DNA of 64,000 bases from Thermoplasmata archaeon (GTDB lineage: Archaea > Thermoplasmatota > Thermoplasmata > Lutacidiplasmatales > UBA184): the NCBI GenBank assembly GCA_021816865.1, contig JAKAWX010000006.1:1-64000 (forward strand), written 5' to 3'. Of this stretch, positions 42,180 through 50,216 are shown one piece after another (position 1 is the stretch's first letter; every line of letters begins with the position of its first letter). The notes below the pieces were generated by a model. It was not told the origin of the DNA. It did no database searches and worked only from the letters and a program-made list of their open reading frames with translations. Both the position numbers and the translations under genes were made by a program.

Positions 42180-43130
42180 GTGCGCGACTCCCACCTCTCC
42201 CTCCTCGCCGCGGTCACCGCGGCCGGCTTCTGGGGGCTCTCGGGGACCGCGGCACAGGCCCTGTTCGCCCTCTACGGGTTCCCGGTGCTCGGCCTGGTAC
42301 CGGTCCGGATGCTCTGCTCGAGCCTCCTCGTGATCGCCCTCATCGGCCGGAAGGGCCGCCCTCCGATCACGGCGACCTTCGTCCTCCTCTCGGTATTCGG
42401 GATCGCGGGCTCGCAGCTCACGTACCTCGAGGCGATCCGGTACTCGAACGCCGTGACGGCGACGCTCCTGCAGTTCCTCTTCCTCCCGATGGTCGCCGCC
42501 TACGAGGGGCTTCGGGGCGAGATCCGTTGGTCCTGGCACTGGAGCGCGACCCTGGGGATCGCGGTCGTGGGCACCGTGCTCCTGGTGGCGAACACGGGGG
42601 CCGGCTCGCTCGGGATCCTCATCACGCCGATCGGGGCGCTCTTCGGCCTCCTCTCCGCGGCCTCGGGGGCGTACTACTCGATCGCCGGCGGCCGCCTCGT
42701 GAAGGTCCACGGAACGTGGCCGCTCACCGCCTGGGGGTTCCTGGTCGGGGGCCTCGTCACCCTGCCGGCCGGAGCGTACGCCTTCGCGACCTACTCCTTC
42801 CCGGCGCCCCTCGCATCCTGGGCCGAGATGGTCGGGCTCGTGGCGTTCGTCATCGTCTTCGGCACCCTGCTCGGCTACGGCCTCTACCTCTTCGGCCTTC
42901 GGCACCTCCCCGCGACCGAGGTCGGGATCGCCGCGTCGGTCGAGCCGATCAGCGCCGGCGTGGCGACGCACGTCTTCCTCGGTGTGACGCTCTCGTTCGT
43001 CCAATACCTCGGTGGCGCGCTCATCGTCGTCGCGGTGGCGCTCCTCGGCCTGCGTCGCCGCCCAAGGGGCGGTGGTCCGGCCCCGGTGGCGACCGCACTC
43101 CCTCCGGCTCGGACCGATCCGCCCCCGTGA
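42180..43130 (+). CDS. EamA/DMT-superfamily transporter
   Basis: Ten hydrophobic helices in about 295 residues, in two similar halves (two EamA domains). Telltale segments are TAAGFWGLSGTAAQALFA, VTATLLQFLFLPMVAAYEG at the end of repeat one, LSAASGAYYSIAGGRLV and EVGIAASVEPISAGVATHVFLG in repeat two. Substrate unknown: relatives export amino acids, nucleosides or sugars. Start is the GTG at 42180. Confidence 0.88.
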   Translation: MRDSHLSLLAAVTAAGFWGLSGTAAQALFALYGFPVLGLVPVRMLCSSLLVIALIGRKGRPPITATFVLLSVFGIAGSQLTYLEAIRYSNAVTATLLQFLFLPMVAAYEGLRGEIRWSWHWSATLGIAVVGTVLLVANTGAGSLGILITPIGALFGLLSAASGAYYSIAGGRLVKVHGTWPLTAWGFLVGGLVTLPAGAYAFATYSFPAPLASWAEMVGLVAFVIVFGTLLGYGLYLFGLRHLPATEVGIAASVEPISAGVATHVFLGVTLSFVQYLGGALIVVAVALLGLRRRPRGGGPAPVATALPPARTDPPP

Positions 43131-43189
43131 CGCCGCGCCCCCTTTCGGGAGCGGCCGGCGCCCCCGGCTCCGGAGTGGGGGGGCGGAAA

Positions 43190-43199
43190 GCGTTAAGCC
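43190..43199 (+). promoter_or_regulatory. TATA box of the NqrB/RnfD-like gene
   Basis: GCGTTAAGCC centred 30 bases before the ATG at 43225. Confidence 0.6.
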
Positions 43200-43224
43200 A
43201 GGCCCGTGGGCTGGTCCGCTGGTA

Positions 43225-44523
43225 ATGGTGGCGGAAGCGCCCGCGGTCCGATCGAGCATCCCGGCGGCCTTGTGGCGGTCCCGACGGACCTCCATCACGC
43301 GGATGCTTCCGCCGGCCCGTCTGGTCGCGATCTTCCTGGCGGGTCTCGGGGCGTACGAGGTCTACTACCTCGGCGGGCTCGGGGCGTACACGCTCCTCGC
43401 CCTCCCCGTCTTCGCCGCGGCCGTCGACCTCGCGTTCCAGCGGGCCCGGTTCCCACACCTGCGGTTCCCGGACGCGGCGATCGCCACCGGTCTCTTCCTC
43501 GCCCTTCTGTTCCCGCCGAGCGCCCCGCTCGTCTTCGCCGCCACCGCCACGTTCGTGGCTATCGGGGTACGGCACGTCCTGAGGCTCCGCGGGCGACCAT
43601 GGTTCAACCCGGCGGTCACCGGCGTGGTCGTAGGCACGCTCTTCCTCGGGCTCGCCCCCGCCTGGTGGGTCGGCATCGGACCGTTCGGGGAGCTCGCGAT
43701 GCTCGTCCTCGGAGGTCTCCTGATCGTACGGACCCCGAGCTCCTGGCGCCTGCCGGCCGTCTTCCTGCTCACCTACGCTCTCCTCTCGGTCGTCCAGCAC
43801 GTCTTCGTCGGGGCGACCACGGACGCCCGCGTCCTGCTCTTGCAGGCGGTCGACCCGGCGACCTTGTTCTTCGCGCTCTTCATGATCCCCGAGCCCCGGA
43901 CCTCCCCCGGTGCGGCGCACCAGCAGGTCCTCTACGCCGGGGTGGTCGGGATCGCCGCGGCGTTCCTGCCGATCTTCCTCCCGACGCTCGGCATCCTCGT
44001 GAGCCTCCTGGCCGGCAATGTGCTCGCGGTCGCCCTCCGGCGGAACGCCCCGGCAACGGTCGCGTCGCGGCCCGCGCCCGCTCCCGGCCGGACGGGGCGG
44101 GGCAAGCGGAGCGCGGCCCGGGGAGCGAAGTCCTCGCCCGGACCGTCCGCCCGATGGCCGATCGCCTACCGCGTGAGCGCGGGCCTCCTCGTGCTGGTCG
44201 TGTTGGGCGCGGTCGTCGCGGCGAACCCGGCGAACCACGCGACCGCCCCCCTCTTCAAGGTCACCGCGCCCGGCGGCGGGGGCGGCGGCGGCGTGACGGC
44301 CGCCTGCCAGTCGGACAACACGTCGATCCCGTCGTCCGACCTCACGACGCTCCACAAGCTGCTCGGCCCGTCCGTGATCCTGTCGTACGACTCCCGGACC
44401 GGTGTCGTCGTCTTCTACGACCCGGTCAACCAGGTGACCGTGACCGAGTCGGACCTCTACGAGGACTACGGCTTCGCCGAGTTCAACGGGGACGACTACG
44501 CGGTCTCGGGCTGCGCTCCCTGA
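43225..44523 (+). CDS. NqrB/RnfD-like membrane protein with extracytoplasmic C-terminal domain
   Basis: 432 residues. About nine hydrophobic helices (30-275) carry RLRGRPWFNPAVTGVVVG, IVRTPSSWRLPAVFL and LFFALFMIPEPRTSP, features of the NqrB/RnfD/RnfE membrane family of sodium- or proton-coupled electron-transfer complexes. A polar Arg/Pro/Lys loop (about 275-320), another helix, a Gly-rich linker (about 345-355) and a 75-residue Cys/Asp-rich soluble domain end the protein. The rest of an Rnf/Nqr complex is not in this window. The FMN-bearing Thr of true RnfD could not be identified. It may be a stand-alone homologue of unknown role. Confidence 0.7.
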   Translation: MVAEAPAVRSSIPAALWRSRRTSITRMLPPARLVAIFLAGLGAYEVYYLGGLGAYTLLALPVFAAAVDLAFQRARFPHLRFPDAAIATGLFLALLFPPSAPLVFAATATFVAIGVRHVLRLRGRPWFNPAVTGVVVGTLFLGLAPAWWVGIGPFGELAMLVLGGLLIVRTPSSWRLPAVFLLTYALLSVVQHVFVGATTDARVLLLQAVDPATLFFALFMIPEPRTSPGAAHQQVLYAGVVGIAAAFLPIFLPTLGILVSLLAGNVLAVALRRNAPATVASRPAPAPGRTGRGKRSAARGAKSSPGPSARWPIAYRVSAGLLVLVVLGAVVAANPANHATAPLFKVTAPGGGGGGGVTAACQSDNTSIPSSDLTTLHKLLGPSVILSYDSRTGVVVFYDPVNQVTVTESDLYEDYGFAEFNGDDYAVSGCAP

Positions 44524-44590
44524 GCGGCCCCGGCGGACGCTCCCGCGCGTCCCTCCATACCCCTACGACCATAACTATAGTCTAAGTTGG

Positions 44591-44602
44591 AATTATATAT
44601 AC
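44591..44602 (+). promoter_or_regulatory. TATA box of the phoU-like gene
   Basis: AATTATATATAC, one of the most AT-rich runs in the window, centred about 30 bases before the ATG at 44627. Confidence 0.75.
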
Positions 44603-44616
44603 TGTGGCCCGGATGT

Positions 44617-44628
44617 ATCGATATCGAT
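44617..44628 (+). promoter_or_regulatory. Perfect 12-base palindrome overlapping the phoU-like start, possible operator
   Basis: ATCGATATCGAT is self-complementary over 12 bases and ends on the first two bases of the ATG at 44627. A second short palindrome, ACTATAGT (44574-44581), lies upstream of the TATA box. The pair flanking the promoter looks like a regulator-binding arrangement. The binding protein is unknown. Confidence 0.45.
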
Positions 44629-45664
44629 GAAACCGCACACGACCCGACCGACCGGGCGGAGGTCCGCCCCCAGCTCCCGATCGACCCCCCGCGCCCAGCG
44701 CGGGGACCCTGCCGCCGGCGCGAACGCGCCCGGGACGGGGCCCGCCGACCCCGACCGGGGCTCCGCGCTCGCGACCCCGTCCGCCCCTCCCGTGGCGTTC
44801 GTCGGGGTCACGGCCCACGAACCCCCCGAACACCTTTTCCGGGCCTTGCTCGCCGCGTACCTCTCGGGCGCGGGCGAATTCCTCGTCCGGGAGTCCCCCA
44901 CGGTCTCGGAGGCGACCCGCGAGGTCGTGAGGACGTTCTGCCGACGCACCCTCGGGCCGGAGATACTTTCGGAGGGGGAGGGCGTGCTGCGCCTCCGCGA
45001 CCTCTCGGCGGAGGGCTTCGTGCCGCTCGAACGGCGGGTCGCCCGCATGGGGCGCGCGGTCGTCGAGCTGCAGCGGCAGGCCGTCGAGAGCTGGTCGGCG
45101 CTCCCCCTGCGGGAGGACGGCTTCTGGGCCGGGCGCGACGACGAGGTCGACCGCGAGGCGTGGTGCATCGAGCGGAGCCTCGCCCGCGACCCCTCGGCGA
45201 CGCTCGACCCGGGCCGGCTCCTCGGCCTCTTCACGGTGACGCGGAGCCTCGAACGGATCGCGGACCACGCGGTCGGCCTCGGCGAGGAGGGGCGCCGCCT
45301 CGCGGGAACCCCGTCGGCGTCCCTGCCGGTCGGCCTCCTGCGCCGGTTCCACCGCCAGGCGATGGACCATCTCGAAGGGGCGCTCGCCGCGCGGGACGCC
45401 TCTCGTGCGAACGAGCTGCTCGACACGGGGGAGGCGTTGACCGCCTCGGGGCGGGCGCTCGCCGACCGTCTCCTGCCCGCGGTTCACGGTGAGACCGTCC
45501 CGCCGACGACGATCGCCGCGGTCGCCCGGATCCTCGACTCGATCCTGCGGACGATCGCCTATGCCCAGGACATCGCCGAGGTCGCCCTCGACCGGGTTCC
45601 CGTCCGGGAGTTCGGCGACCGGCGCGCGCGCTCCGGCCGCGCCCCGCTCGCCTCCGCGGCCTAG
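44627..45664 (+). CDS. PhoU-domain protein (phosphate uptake regulator-like), lacking the AbrB-type N terminus
   Basis: 345 residues. A Ser/Thr/Pro/Arg-rich, probably disordered N terminus (1-55) is followed by the region that in archaeal PhoU proteins comes after an AbrB-like DNA-binding domain (PPEHLFRALLAAYLSGAGEF, EILSEGEGVLRLRDL). A PhoU helical bundle (about 135-345) repeats the pattern VTRSLERIADHAVGLGEEG and ARILDSILRTIAYAQDIAEVAL. PhoU proteins tie phosphate transport to signalling. No pst transporter is adjacent, but SixA, exopolyphosphatase and CHAD genes follow, so a phosphate/polyphosphate role is plausible. Confidence 0.8.
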   Translation: MKPHTTRPTGRRSAPSSRSTPRAQRGDPAAGANAPGTGPADPDRGSALATPSAPPVAFVGVTAHEPPEHLFRALLAAYLSGAGEFLVRESPTVSEATREVVRTFCRRTLGPEILSEGEGVLRLRDLSAEGFVPLERRVARMGRAVVELQRQAVESWSALPLREDGFWAGRDDEVDREAWCIERSLARDPSATLDPGRLLGLFTVTRSLERIADHAVGLGEEGRRLAGTPSASLPVGLLRRFHRQAMDHLEGALAARDASRANELLDTGEALTASGRALADRLLPAVHGETVPPTTIAAVARILDSILRTIAYAQDIAEVALDRVPVREFGDRRARSGRAPLASAA

Positions 45665-45741: not shown

Positions 45742-46281
45742 ATGCGCCGATCCCTGGGACCCGGGCCGCACCACGTGAAGGTCGTTGCCGTCCGCCACGG
45801 TCCGGCCGAGGTCAAGGACCCCGTCCGTTGGCCGGACGACCGGACCCGGCCGCTCACGGAGGAGGGCATCGAAGAGACGCGACGCGCCGCCCGGGGCCTC
45901 GTGCGCCTGACCGGCCCCGTCGACCGCGTCGCGACGAGCCGCGCGGTGCGCGCCCGGCGGACCGCGGAGATCGTCCGCGACGCCCTCGGAGGATCCTCCG
46001 CGCCCGAGCGGTGGCCCGAGCTCGAGATCGGCCACCTCGTGCCGGGGATCTTCGACCGGTTGAACCGTGCGGTCCGATCGGGCGAGCAGGTGGTGCTCGT
46101 CGGTCACGAGCCGACGCTCGCGGAGTTCGTGGGGCTCGCGCTCACCGGTGAGGGGATCGCCCTCGCCCGGCTCGGCAAGGCCGGCGCCCTATGCCTCGAG
46201 TTCCCCGCGGCCGTGGTCCCCGGCGGGGCACGCCTGCTCTGGCTGCTCACGCGGAAGCAGCTCGCGAGCGTGCGCGCCTGA
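45742..46281 (+). CDS. sixA: SixA-like histidine phosphatase
   Basis: Histidine phosphatase superfamily, 179 residues. The phosphate-pocket RHG is in KVVAVRHGPAE, followed by RTRPLTEEGIEETRRAA, the SRAVRARRTAEIV arginines and the second catalytic His in VVLVGHEPTLAEF. Length and motifs fit SixA, which removes phosphate from phosphohistidine. An in-frame GTG at 45775 would drop eleven residues. 77 bases after the phoU-like gene; its end overlaps the convergent kinase gene by 35 bases. Substrate unproven. Confidence 0.85.
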   Translation: MRRSLGPGPHHVKVVAVRHGPAEVKDPVRWPDDRTRPLTEEGIEETRRAARGLVRLTGPVDRVATSRAVRARRTAEIVRDALGGSSAPERWPELEIGHLVPGIFDRLNRAVRSGEQVVLVGHEPTLAEFVGLALTGEGIALARLGKAGALCLEFPAAVVPGGARLLWLLTRKQLASVRA

Positions 46282-47011
46282 AGGACGCGCGGGGCCGTCG
46301 CGGTCGGGGAGCGTTCGCGCCCTCGGCCGCCCCGTAGAGCGGGGCGATGAGCCGCTGCACGTCGGCGTGGACCTGCTCGGGGGCCCGGTTCGCGTCGACC
46401 CGGGCGAAGTCGTAGTCGCGCTGCATCCACTCGAACTCGCGGGAGAGCAGGTCCTGGTAGCGGAAGAAGCTCTCGAAGAGGTCGCGCGAGAGCGAGAGGT
46501 CCATACCGGACTCCCAGTAGTCGAGCGTGCCGTACTTCGCGATCGCGCGGTGCAGGAGGATCTCCGGTCGGGCGTCGAGGAAGAGGACCCGGTCGGGCCG
46601 CAGGGCGAACCCGTAGAGCTCGCGCGCCCACGCGCGCGACGCCCCACGGGCGATCGCGCGGGCCATGAGCGTGTAGATGTACCGGTCGGCGAGCACGGTG
46701 CTCCCCGCCGACAGGGCCGGGACGATCTTGTTCTCGAGCTGGTCGGCGAAGTCGGCGGCGTAGAGGAGCGCCATCGTCGTCGCGCCGAGCGTGTGGCCCT
46801 TCTTCGCCCGGTCGATCTCCCCGCTCACGAGGTCCGAGCGGCGCAGCCCGGTGTCGACGACCGAGTGGCCTTCGACCTCGAGCCACGACTTCAGGAGCGC
46901 GACCTCGGTCGTCCGCCCCGAGCCGTCGGCGCCCTCGATGACGATCAGCTTCCCCGGCAGCGGCTCCGCGGGCATTCCCGGCAGGCGCGTGCCGTAGGTC
47001 CTATCCGTCAT
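46247..47011 (-). CDS. Thymidylate kinase-family protein, P-loop Lys replaced by Arg
   Basis: 254 residues. P-loop VIEGADGSGRTTEVALL, the DR motif VLADRYIYTLMARAIARG and a C-terminal FARVDANRAPEQVHADV place it in the dTMP kinase family. The P-loop lysine that contacts ATP phosphates is arginine. A Pro/Arg-rich tail of about 30 residues is added. Its ATG lies inside the end of the kinase gene upstream (11-base overlap), so the two are coupled. It may be a weak kinase, a kinase for another nucleotide or a pseudo-enzyme partner. Confidence 0.8.
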   Translation of the reverse strand: MTDRTYGTRLPGMPAEPLPGKLIVIEGADGSGRTTEVALLKSWLEVEGHSVVDTGLRRSDLVSGEIDRAKKGHTLGATTMALLYAADFADQLENKIVPALSAGSTVLADRYIYTLMARAIARGASRAWARELYGFALRPDRVLFLDARPEILLHRAIAKYGTLDYWESGMDLSLSRDLFESFFRYQDLLSREFEWMQRDYDFARVDANRAPEQVHADVQRLIAPLYGAAEGANAPRPRRPRASFRRARSRAASA

Positions 47012-47702
47012 GGATCAGCCGCTCCCCCGTCGGGAACCGCTCGAGGAGCGGCGCGAGGTGCCGGCGCACCTCCGACTGGACCGCCTCGACCGGGCGGGTG
47101 GCGTCCACGACCGTGAACTTGTCGCTGCGGGCGAGCCGGTCGTACTCCCGCATGAGCCGGCCCTGGAAACGTTCGTAGCTCTCCGTCACGGAGTCCGAGA
47201 GCCCGAGGTCCATGCCGGCCTCGTAGTAGCTGATCTTGAGCCGGGACGCGAGCTTCCGTCTCAGCGTCACCGCGACGGGGACGCGGAAGTAGAAGACACG
47301 GTCGGGCCGCGGGGCGAACGCGTAGATCGTCCGCACCCACGCCGGGTCGCAGCCCCGGGCCGCGTCGCGGACGAACGCGGTGTAGGCGTACCGGTCGCAG
47401 ACGACGAGGTACCCCGCCCGCAGCGGCGGAAGGATCTGGCGGTCGAAGCGGTCGGCGAAGTCGGTCGCGTGGAGGAGGGAGAACGTGGTCGGGGTCAGGA
47501 GCCCCTTCTTCTTCCCGCGGCGGATCACACCGGCGACGAGCTCGGACGAGTTCCACTCGGTGAAGAAGACCCGGTAGCCCCGGGCCTGGAGCCACTTGCC
47601 GAGCAGCCTCGCCTGCGTCGATTTGCCGCTTCCGTCGAGGCCCTCGAAGACGAGCAGGCGCCCCGGGAAGCCATGGTGCGCGGACGGGTCCTCAGCCGGC
47701 AT
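47001..47702 (-). CDS. tmk: Thymidylate kinase
   Basis: Phosphorylates dTMP to dTDP. The intact P-loop VFEGLDGSGKSTQARLL, the DRY segment LVVCDRYAYTAFVRDAARG and FTVVDATRPVEAVQSEV are family-typical. 233 residues. Second gene of a ppx-tmk-tmk operon, its ATG overlapping the exopolyphosphatase stop by 11 bases. Similarity to the next gene (about the same length and order) shows tandem duplication. Normally archaea need one Tmk; why two, downstream of ppx, is unexplained. Confidence 0.86.
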   Translation of the reverse strand: MPAEDPSAHHGFPGRLLVFEGLDGSGKSTQARLLGKWLQARGYRVFFTEWNSSELVAGVIRRGKKKGLLTPTTFSLLHATDFADRFDRQILPPLRAGYLVVCDRYAYTAFVRDAARGCDPAWVRTIYAFAPRPDRVFYFRVPVAVTLRRKLASRLKISYYEAGMDLGLSDSVTESYERFQGRLMREYDRLARSDKFTVVDATRPVEAVQSEVRRHLAPLLERFPTGERLIHDG

Positions 47703-49248
47703 CGCGTACCCGCACGTCGAGGCCGAACGCGCGCTGCATCGGCTTGCCGACCTTCTCCGCCCACCGGGGGGGAAGAGCGGTATCGGCCGGGGCAGAAAAG
47801 CTCACGCCGAGCACGCGACCCCCGCTCCCGAGCGCGAAGCGGGGCCGGCCGGGCGACAGGATCTCCGCGACCTCGAGGATCGTCCCGAGCCGGAGCGCGG
47901 TCGCGAGGTCGGCCGGCTTGAGGATCGGCAGGTACCCCTTCTTCCACGACGACGGGGGATCGTCGCCCTCGTGCAGGTAGACGGTCATCGACGCGAGGAG
48001 GATCTCCCGCGGGTCGAGGCCACGGATCGGGTAGTTCTGGACGAGGTAGGCGGAGTGGTGCGCGTGGTTCCAGAGGTCGACCGCGGTGCCCGCGTCGTGC
48101 ATCCAGGCCGCCACGCGCAGCGCGAGCGCCTCGCTCGGGCCGCCGTCGAACGACTTCGCGAGCACCTCGAAGAGCGCGGACGCGGTCTCCGCCACTTCGC
48201 GGCCGTGCTCGAGGCGGAAGGCGAACGACGCCGCCGCGGCGACGGCCGAACGCTCGGCGAGCTCTTCCGCCGAGGCGGGGAGCTTCGCGCCGACTGCCTC
48301 GAGCGCGATGCCGTCCCGGATGCCGGTCCCCGCGACCGTCACCCGGTCGGCCTTCCCGGCCCTAAGGAGCTCTTCGATGATGACGACGCCCGCGGGGACG
48401 ATGTCGGTCCGGTCGCTGCCGATCCCGGGGACCGACCGGCGCTTCGCGGCCGGCATCTCCCCGAGGAGCTCGCCGAGCGCCTCGAGGTCGTGGTCGTAGA
48501 GCGGGTAACCGTGTACGCGTCGGACCGGGTACTCCCGCATCTCGATCGCCGCCCGCGCGAGCGAGCGGATCGTCCCGCCGCTCCCGAAGAGGCGGTACGG
48601 GCTCCCGCCGAACGCCTCGACGACCGTCGCGAGCGTCTCGCGGACGTGCGCGCGCAATTCCTCGGTCTCGTGCCTCTTCGGCGGGTCGTGCTCGAAGAAC
48701 CGCTGCGAGAGACGAAGCACCCCGAGCGGCAGGCTCACCGAAGTGCGGAGCGCGCCGCCCCGGACCTCGGCGAGCTGGAGCGAACCCCCTCCGAGGTCGA
48801 AGACGAGGTCGTCCGCGAGCGCCCAGGCGCCGGCGACCCCGAGGTAGGCGTAGCGGGCCTCCTCGGCCCCCGTGATCACCCGGAGCGAGATCCCGGTCGC
48901 GCGCTCGACGGTCTTGAGGAACTCCCCGCCGTTCGGCGCGTCGCGGACCGCGCTCGTCGCGACCGCCACCACGCGCGACGGGGCGAGCGCTTCGAGCACC
49001 CCCGCGAACCGGCGCAGGGACGCGAGGCCGCGCTCGATCGCCTCGTCCGAGAGCCGGCCCTCGGGTCCCGGCGCGAGGCCCATCCGCGGCGCGTCCTTCG
49101 TCTCGAAGACGGCGCGCGCGGTCCCCTCGGTCGTCTCGAAGACGACGCACCGGGCGGTGTTCGACCCGAGGTCGATCACGCCGACGGTCGGGCGGGAACG
49201 GGAGGAGACCGGCGCGCGGCCCGTCGCCGCCGGAGGGGACCGGTCCAC
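47692..49248 (-). CDS. ppx: Exopolyphosphatase / guanosine pentaphosphatase (Ppx/GppA)
   Basis: Actin-fold phosphatase, 518 residues. Phosphate-1 motif VGVIDLGSNTARCVVFE, the catalytic Glu region VITGAEEARYAYLG, phosphate-2 DLVFDLGGGSLQLAEV and the adenosine-type GSGGTIRSLAR are present. A C-terminal HD-type domain (about 320-518) includes RVAAWMHDAGTAVDLWNHAHHSAYLV. It should degrade inorganic polyphosphate from the ends. First gene of ppx-tmk-tmk; a CHAD gene is divergent 101 bases away, which supports a polyphosphate role. GppA activity is not expected in archaea. Confidence 0.93.
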   Translation of the reverse strand: MDRSPPAATGRAPVSSRSRPTVGVIDLGSNTARCVVFETTEGTARAVFETKDAPRMGLAPGPEGRLSDEAIERGLASLRRFAGVLEALAPSRVVAVATSAVRDAPNGGEFLKTVERATGISLRVITGAEEARYAYLGVAGAWALADDLVFDLGGGSLQLAEVRGGALRTSVSLPLGVLRLSQRFFEHDPPKRHETEELRAHVRETLATVVEAFGGSPYRLFGSGGTIRSLARAAIEMREYPVRRVHGYPLYDHDLEALGELLGEMPAAKRRSVPGIGSDRTDIVPAGVVIIEELLRAGKADRVTVAGTGIRDGIALEAVGAKLPASAEELAERSAVAAAASFAFRLEHGREVAETASALFEVLAKSFDGGPSEALALRVAAWMHDAGTAVDLWNHAHHSAYLVQNYPIRGLDPREILLASMTVYLHEGDDPPSSWKKGYLPILKPADLATALRLGTILEVAEILSPGRPRFALGSGGRVLGVSFSAPADTALPPRWAEKVGKPMQRAFGLDVRVRDAG

Positions 49249-49349: not shown

Positions 49350-50216
49350 GTGGGAACCTCCCGAGACCCCTCCGCCGAGGCGGAGGCTGACCGCCTCCTC
49401 CGGGAGGTCGAGCGCACGCTGGAGGCGGTGCGCCGGGACGTCACCGAGGTGGTCCGCCGTCCCCACCCGACCCCCGGACGCCTCCACCACCTCCACCGGG
49501 AGCTGCGACGGCTGCGCACGGCCCTGTCGGTCGGACGAGAGCTGTTCTCGAAACGGGACGGCACGAAGCTCCTCGCGCTCGACCGTCGGGTCCGTCGCCT
49601 CGCCCGCCTCGTCGGCGGGGTTCGCGACCGGGACGTCCTCCTTGAGCTCCTCGGGTCGGTCGGGACGAACGCGCGTCCCGGCCTCGAGAGCGAGATGCTC
49701 GAGCGGCACCGGTCCCGGCTCCGGGACGACGCGCGCACGGGACGCGAGCTCTTGCGGGCCTTCGCTCGCTCCGAGACGGAGGCCGGCCTGCTCGACGAGG
49801 TCGCCCGAACCCTCGGCCGAGCGGCCGGGACCGCCCGCACCCCCCACCTCGGTCGGTGGCTGGTCGCCCACCACGCACGCGGACGCGAGCGGGTCGCGGC
49901 GGCCCGCTCGAAAGCCCGCCGTCGTCCGTCGATGAAGCGGCTCCATCGCCTGAGGATCCGGGTCCGGCAGCTGCGGCAGGTCGCCGACCTCGCCCGAGCC
50001 GTGGCCCCCGCCTCCGGCCGGACGTTCGACGCCCCGTTCCACCGCCTCCAGCGGCAGCTCGGCCGCCTCCACGACCTCGACGTCCTCATCGCGGGCCTCG
50101 ACCCCGCGCTCTCGGCAACCGGTTGGTTCCGGGCGCTCAAGGACGAGCGCAAGCGGCAGCGACGGGAGATCCGCGCTGTCCTGCGCTCGTCGAGCGAGCT
50201 TTCGGGCCGGCCGTAG
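49350..50216 (+). CDS. CHAD-domain protein
   Basis: 288 residues, almost entirely a CHAD (conserved histidine alpha-helical) domain: two four-helix bundles with basic conserved faces. The first bundle has LHHLHRELRRLRTALSVG and GVRDRDVLLELL, the second MKRLHRLRIRVRQLRQVADLA and LGRLHDLDVL. CHAD domains are known to bind polyphosphate and to travel with CYTH, ppk or ppx genes; here ppx is divergent next door. Start is the GTG at 49350. Confidence 0.88.
   Translation: MGTSRDPSAEAEADRLLREVERTLEAVRRDVTEVVRRPHPTPGRLHHLHRELRRLRTALSVGRELFSKRDGTKLLALDRRVRRLARLVGGVRDRDVLLELLGSVGTNARPGLESEMLERHRSRLRDDARTGRELLRAFARSETEAGLLDEVARTLGRAAGTARTPHLGRWLVAHHARGRERVAAARSKARRRPSMKRLHRLRIRVRQLRQVADLARAVAPASGRTFDAPFHRLQRQLGRLHDLDVLIAGLDPALSATGWFRALKDERKRQRREIRAVLRSSSELSGRP

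Follow-up and report, generated by a model that had tools for sequence, protein, structure and literature searches.

The window analysed here is a 64 kb stretch of DNA from a GC-rich Thermoplasmata archaeon. At positions 44627-45664 of its forward strand lies an open reading frame encoding a PhoU protein of 345 residues that carries no AbrB domain. The PhoU domain was recognised by Pfam (PF01895, 34 bits against a cut-off of 23.5, E 3.9e-8, residues 168-219), and no other Pfam family matched the protein at E≤1. The score against the full-length PhoU equivalog TIGR02135 was 21.3 bits, below the cut-off of 130.25. Since the score lies below this cut-off and the protein represents a distant archaeal form, we have filed it under the PhoU superfamily and not under that equivalog. 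In the AF2 model, residues 131-327 (45017-45607, forward strand) are predicted to form the two PhoU helical bundles, and a structure search with the model returned 4q25 with the same double-bundle fold (Z 23.6, r.m.s.d. 2.2 over 194 residues). Asp171, Asp175, Glu209, Arg210, Asp213 and His214, which we take to be putative metal ligands of PhoU, are invariant across the 23 sequences compared.

A preliminary description of this DNA had held that the protein has lost an N-terminal AbrB-type DNA-binding part and starts instead with a Ser/Pro/Arg-rich stretch, and both points were borne out. Ser, Pro, Ala, Gly, Arg and Thr make up 82% of residues 1-56, with a net charge of +5. The structure of the N-terminus was predicted with AF2 from 28 sequences. 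Residues 1-50 gave block means of pLDDT of 38-47 (under 50 at almost every position from 1 to 48), and no AbrB fold was predicted, so that residues 1-52 (44627-44782, forward strand) appear as a disordered tail where AbrB would be. As a control, an orthologue modelled from the same 28 sequences displayed a beta-beta-alpha-beta-beta unit of AbrB topology (strands 29-33 and 37-41, helix 44-49, strands 58-62 and 68-72) with block pLDDT values of 60-83. An AbrB profile was then run against all six frames of the regions between -600 and +450 relative to the starts of the 39 AbrB-less loci, three of which are cut at a contig end. Nothing significant was found (lowest E 0.81), and all 22 AbrB-bearing loci, which are also the training set of the profile, were detected at E≤6e-20.

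The preliminary description had named two points that would count against its claim, an AbrB fold predicted for the N-terminus and an upstream start restoring the domain, and neither was found. The reading frame is open from 44444, and ATG, GTG and TTG are absent from it between there and 44627. Recovery of AbrB by an upstream start or a frameshift is ruled out by this reading together with the six-frame profile search. One may still ask whether the missing domain is an artefact of gene finding or assembly, as most of the relatives are draft genomes of many contigs. The start region lies on the same contig in 36 of the 39 AbrB-less loci, none of which shows a significant AbrB signal in any frame, and the close relative G051, 89% identical, agrees with the window; an artefact is therefore highly improbable. 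The sequence shows that the window gene encodes a PhoU that has lost its N-terminal AbrB DNA-binding domain.

The genome to which the window belongs is assembled in 11 contigs (1.54 Mb, 83% complete). A transfer of AbrB to a separate gene was considered in a PF04014 search of this genome, which returned contigs C5 and C6 and a weak match on C3 below the cut-off. The C5 match is itself an AbrB-PhoU, a second PhoU of this genome that starts with the AbrB motif; against PF04014 it scored above the cut-off in one search and just under it in another. The C6 match (L158:1456-2496) is a 346-residue AbrB protein (PF04014, 2e-10) in which no PhoU was found by the PhoU family search or Pfam, and the rest of which has no Pfam match at E≤0.001. 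Its gene adjoins one whose product looks secreted by eye. On C5, the AbrB-PhoU gene adjoins, on the opposite strand and with overlapping ends, a gene (L001:17-1141) in which the C-terminal part of a sugar/MFS transporter is fused to DUF47/PhoU_div (PF00083, PF01865). The reading of this gene starts near the edge of the locus, and the fusion may be a phosphate transporter that carries its own PhoU-like regulator.

Among archaeal relatives, the motif RK-x-Q-x-TG...SLPK, which we take to mark AbrB, was visible by eye in 34 of 36 loci from named genomes (36 of the 80 returned). The other two, one of them from the clade of the window, are cut at contig ends. A profile of the motif sequences matched AbrB/MazE-type antidote proteins of solved structure (9vzc, E 1.8e-4). 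The identity of AbrB in the orthologues thus rests on motif, topology and profile: the Pfam AbrB model misses L163, and P0003 and the PhoU of L128 are just below its cut-off. For the L163 model VIA-align lists no AbrB chain, a result that says little as the N-terminus was barely tested.

Within the genus, the orthologues split into an AbrB-bearing and an AbrB-less group. A midpoint-rooted tree of the conserved core was built from 61 rows, paralogues included (39 AbrB-less and 22 AbrB-bearing). L036, L049 and L057, cut at contig ends, entered the tree as AbrB-less by default and were excluded from the promoter alignment; the readings of L085 and L086 lack a start codon. In G054 and G014 the N-termini of phoU lie on other contigs and are without AbrB, and in G009 the first codons only are visible. 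The AbrB-less rows formed two separate clades, one of 32 rows including the window and one of 7 rows. The tree needs two changes (5-95% range 2-2 over 200 bootstrap trees, with one change in 1% of trees); its starred branches force by themselves one change only, and some joins lie on long branches. Because the AbrB-bearing paralogues fall outside the AbrB-less clades, the simplest reading of these sequences is two separate losses of AbrB in one genus.

Between the tail and the helical bundles, residues 53-127 (44783-45007, forward strand) are predicted to form a beta-alpha-beta-alpha-beta-beta domain that can be aligned in all 50 sequences compared and has no Pfam match. The best structural neighbours in VIA-align were Alba proteins (2z7c, Z 10.5, r.m.s.d. 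2.0 over 73 residues), with Z 10.7 for the model of the orthologue; IF3-C and SepF, of similar topology, followed at Z of about 8. Membership of the Alba family by sequence is unsupported: none of the 50 domain sequences matched PF01918 at E≤1, hhalign gave a probability of 6%, and no Alba protein was among the PDB or Pfam profile matches. Our claim for residues 53-127 is therefore limited to the fold, an unannotated predicted Alba-like fold that in itself implies no function. It could be supposed that the protein binds DNA or RNA directly through this domain and the basic tail, the loss of AbrB having changed its target. The Z scores of both models, the DNA- and RNA-bound entries among the matches and the mostly positive net charge of the tail fit such a role, but the lack of Alba similarity at the sequence level and the match to same-topology proteins with other roles (SepF, Z 8.0) speak against it, and we regard direct binding as unlikely.

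We then turned to the promoter. As previously proposed, AT content peaks just ahead of the gene: a 50-bp stretch there reaches 66% AT, a value equalled by no separate stretch in the 64 kb. The two palindromes described there are indeed present, each once in the window: ACTATAGT at 44574-44581 and ATCGATATCGAT at 44617-44628, across the ATG. Neither is conserved. At the equivalent place, ACTATAGT occurs in 6 of 36 AbrB-less, 3 of 14 AbrB-bearing and 1 of 22 pstS promoters. ATCGATATCGAT is confined to one of the 36 AbrB-less promoters, that of the window, and is missing from all 14 AbrB-bearing and all 22 pstS promoters. These counts rule out the two palindromes as a conserved operator signal. 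Part of ACTATAGT falls inside a longer element that is conserved. Alignment of upstream regions gave for this element CTATnG-N6-TAtAkTCTAAAT-N7-CTATATA, ending about 25 nt before the ATG. In the window, on the forward strand, the promoter alignment places a degenerate upstream half-site, CTACGA (consensus CTATnG), at 44563-44568, 12 bp upstream of the core; across 29 promoters of the window's clade the half-site consensus is CTATag. The core, TATAGTCTAAGT (consensus TAtAkTCTAAAT), was located at 44576-44587 by alignment and pattern search, and the TATA box region, TATATATAC, at 44594-44602, with TATA ending 25 nt before the ATG. The block TATAGTCTAAA is part of the 26-bp element.

The 26-bp pattern has a single match in the window, with 0.00 expected from 100 shuffles. 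When 50 orthologue promoters were compared, 42 matched it with at most three mismatches and the other 8 with four or five; some loci of the second AbrB-less clade and three with AbrB are among these weaker matches. The distance from the end of TATA to the start codon was 24-28 nt in 45 of the 50 promoters (32/36 AbrB-less, 13/14 AbrB-bearing); L044 was entered with a distance of -1, and a later ATG fits. Such a distance fits a transcript that is apparently leaderless. Mean information per position inside and outside the element was 1.49 and 0.37 bits in the 29 promoters of the window's clade, 1.10 and 0.43 in the second AbrB-less clade, 1.18 and 0.37 in the AbrB-bearing group and 1.34 and 0.61 in the pstS promoters, a contrast somewhat inflated because the position of the element in every promoter was taken from the best pattern match.

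The 26-bp core was searched for in 61 genomes of the genus, drawn from a larger group. With at most three mismatches it gave 70 matches in 52 of the 61, at most two per genome, and the reversed pattern gave none. Forty-three of the matches stand before this phoU, 23 before pstS, 3 at contig ends (the split phoU N-termini of G014 and G054, and G009) and 1 elsewhere. This last copy (G024:C98:16010-16035, L141), the only one away from phoU, pstS and contig ends, precedes a short unidentified open reading frame. The window's own genome has one element, on the forward pattern only (reversed, 0); shorter patterns also match reversed there (1 and 2), and the count of one therefore rests on the 26-bp pattern. 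These genome-wide counts rule out a general promoter. A narrower alternative is that the element is a strong core promoter only (BRE plus TATA box) and not a regulatory site, a view favoured by the TATA box at its end, whose spacing is the one expected ahead of a leaderless start. However, it occurs in no more than two copies per genome and almost only at phoU and pstS, its conserved parts TAtAkTCTAAA and CTATnG reach well upstream of the TATA box, and phoU promoters of the C5 type have a TATA box without it (the element is absent from the four read, L088-L091). We consider the core-promoter reading improbable.

The association with pstS was examined by tblastn, with examples checked by Pfam, which confirmed PstS, the permeases, the ABC subunit and the PhoU borne in the operon. 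Among 38 strong PstS matches (E below 1e-78), 21 have an element of their own, 9 lie behind phoU on the same strand, and 8 have no match with three or fewer mismatches. Some of the phoU promoters ahead of those 9 match only with four or five mismatches. All of the remaining 8 have a copy with four or five mismatches, better than the best of 300 shuffles per region, where the shuffles keep single-base content only and the pattern allows one extra base at one position compared with the genus-wide search. In 13 of 22 pstS promoters (e.g., L134, L136 and L144), a short reading frame of 17-63 codons starts with an ATG or GTG located 24-25 nt downstream of the TATA box; it may encode a leader peptide or be what is left of a phoU start that was lost.

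A phoU directly upstream of pstS on the same strand was found in 7 of 7 second-clade rows, 9 of 14 AbrB-bearing rows, and in none of the 32 belonging to the window's clade, where the flanks of some rows are short; the PstS matches begin 201-679 nt past the phoU stop codon, at residue 44-78 of PstS. In relatives, the element is common to phoU and pst genes, as in a Pho-type regulon. In the window's own genome (G000), which is 83% complete, no PstS was found, either through loss or through a gap in the assembly; the nearest relative, G051, has both PstS and the element. Judged from these promoters, the AbrB-less PhoU would belong to a conserved phoU/pst regulon of the Pho type.

In the window's clade the gene has a different setting. 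The gene at 45742-46281 (forward strand) encodes a SixA-like histidine phosphatase (67.7 bits, below the SixA cut-off of 74.5), a conserved neighbour that follows phoU in 29 of the 32 rows of the clade; L062 is without it, and in the other two rows the contigs end within 200 nt. Profile searches and clade comparison identified two thymidylate-kinase-like proteins, A (46247-47011) and B (47001-47702), and a Ppx/GppA exopolyphosphatase family protein (47692-49248), all on the reverse strand, and Pfam and clade comparison a CHAD-domain protein at 49350-50216 on the forward strand. The two Tmk-like genes, Ppx and CHAD follow in most contigs of the clade that are long enough. With phoU and pstS adjacent in the related clades and a SixA/Tmk/Ppx/CHAD setting here, the simplest history would have phoU originally leading the pst genes and relocating afterwards, with the element retained ahead of phoU and of the pst genes alike.

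Two features of this neighbourhood are recorded in their own right. The Tmk-like pair beside Ppx (46247-47702, reverse strand) is 68-99% identical where found, more conserved than PhoU, with one outlier (TmkB of L009, a 34% match), and the first of the two proteins has, by eye, Arg for Lys in its Walker A motif (GADGSGRTT). Upstream, the phoU promoter adjoins a gene (43012-44523, forward strand) for an RnfD/NqrB-like membrane protein whose long C-terminal part lies beyond the family match; such a gene stands at that place in 4 of 31 other rows of the clade, several of which have short left flanks.

Since the element is recognisable with or without AbrB in the adjacent phoU, its reader must, in the AbrB-less clades at any rate, be some other factor. 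The earlier proposal that the gene is controlled by another regulator therefore stands in so far as there is a dedicated promoter element that the gene's own product could not read through AbrB; the part that assigned the signal to the palindromes does not. Signalling by protein contact, also part of that proposal, stays conjectural given the predicted Alba-like domain that the protein keeps, although a fold in itself says nothing of function. The C5-type AbrB-PhoU paralogue, present in 53 of 61 genomes of the genus and in 17 of 17 of high quality, is the best candidate reader. Under phosphate shortage, pst and the AbrB-less phoU would be controlled together and in trans through the element, most likely by this paralogue. 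The AbrB-less PhoU could then serve as a phosphate-sensing brake on Pst, as a partner that tunes the AbrB-PhoU paralogue, or as both, probably sensing phosphate status or passing it on through contacts with Pst or the paralogue. We hold it to be likely that these parts belong together: a PhoU that lost AbrB, a Pho-type element shared with pst, control in trans, likely by the AbrB-PhoU paralogue, and a role of the PhoU as brake or partner.

A regulator unrelated to PhoU, such as a winged-helix factor, might instead read the element, leaving the AbrB-less PhoU as a target that acts only on Pst, like bacterial PhoU. The recognisability of the element regardless of AbrB and its absence from the C5-type promoters read would suit this possibility. 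On the other hand, the pho-boxes of Halobacterium salinarum are described as binding motifs of PhoU regulators (PMC6560208), and no regulator is among the neighbours of the window locus that were followed; we think this possibility rather unlikely, without being slight. Within the preferred reading, control by the AbrB-PhoU paralogue, sensing and DNA binding may even have been split: an AbrB-less PhoU induced from the Pho box would pair there with AbrB-PhoU as a phosphate-dependent co-regulator or dominant-negative partner, an arrangement that would have arisen twice in one genus. This we put forward as a doubtful, tentative idea.

Phosphate sensing and the switching of uptake are poorly known in archaea, and the regulation of archaeal polyphosphate genes is called unknown in one report (PMC6864096). 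The question becomes testable with a 26-bp element that is found in 52 of 61 genomes and has nearly exclusively two kinds of target, and with a set of related regulators that naturally either retain or lack the DNA-binding domain: one can ask what binds the element and what a PhoU does without AbrB. Together they suggest a circuit by which uncultured archaea respond to phosphate, and open the way to a search for its controller. In the literature searched, which left subscription papers mostly outside, we recognised no AbrB-less archaeal PhoU, no link between Alba and PhoU, and no description of the element.

Among known systems, bacterial PhoU proteins (PDB 4q25, 1t72, 1xwm, 2i0m and 1sum) share the two helical bundles with the window protein (Z 21-24) and are also without AbrB, and the linkage to pst is likewise seen in relatives of the window protein, which differs in its additional N-terminal Alba-like domain and tail. 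In bacteria, pst is regulated via PhoR/PhoB. With Alba (Sso10b) fold proteins the predicted domain shares the beta-alpha-beta-alpha-beta-beta topology, but it has no detectable sequence similarity to them and is embedded in a PhoU protein. The archaeal AbrB/SpoVT-PhoU transcription regulators, among them TK2245 of Thermococcus kodakarensis (PMC7325993), have the PhoU core, which in the archaeal PhoUs of our alignments follows the same domain as in the window protein. The sister-clade orthologues of the window gene have the AbrB domain, whereas the window protein has a disordered tail in its place. The pho-boxes of H. salinarum, as described in PMC6560208, are likewise a conserved promoter element before pst genes; the element found here differs in that it also precedes a stand-alone phoU.
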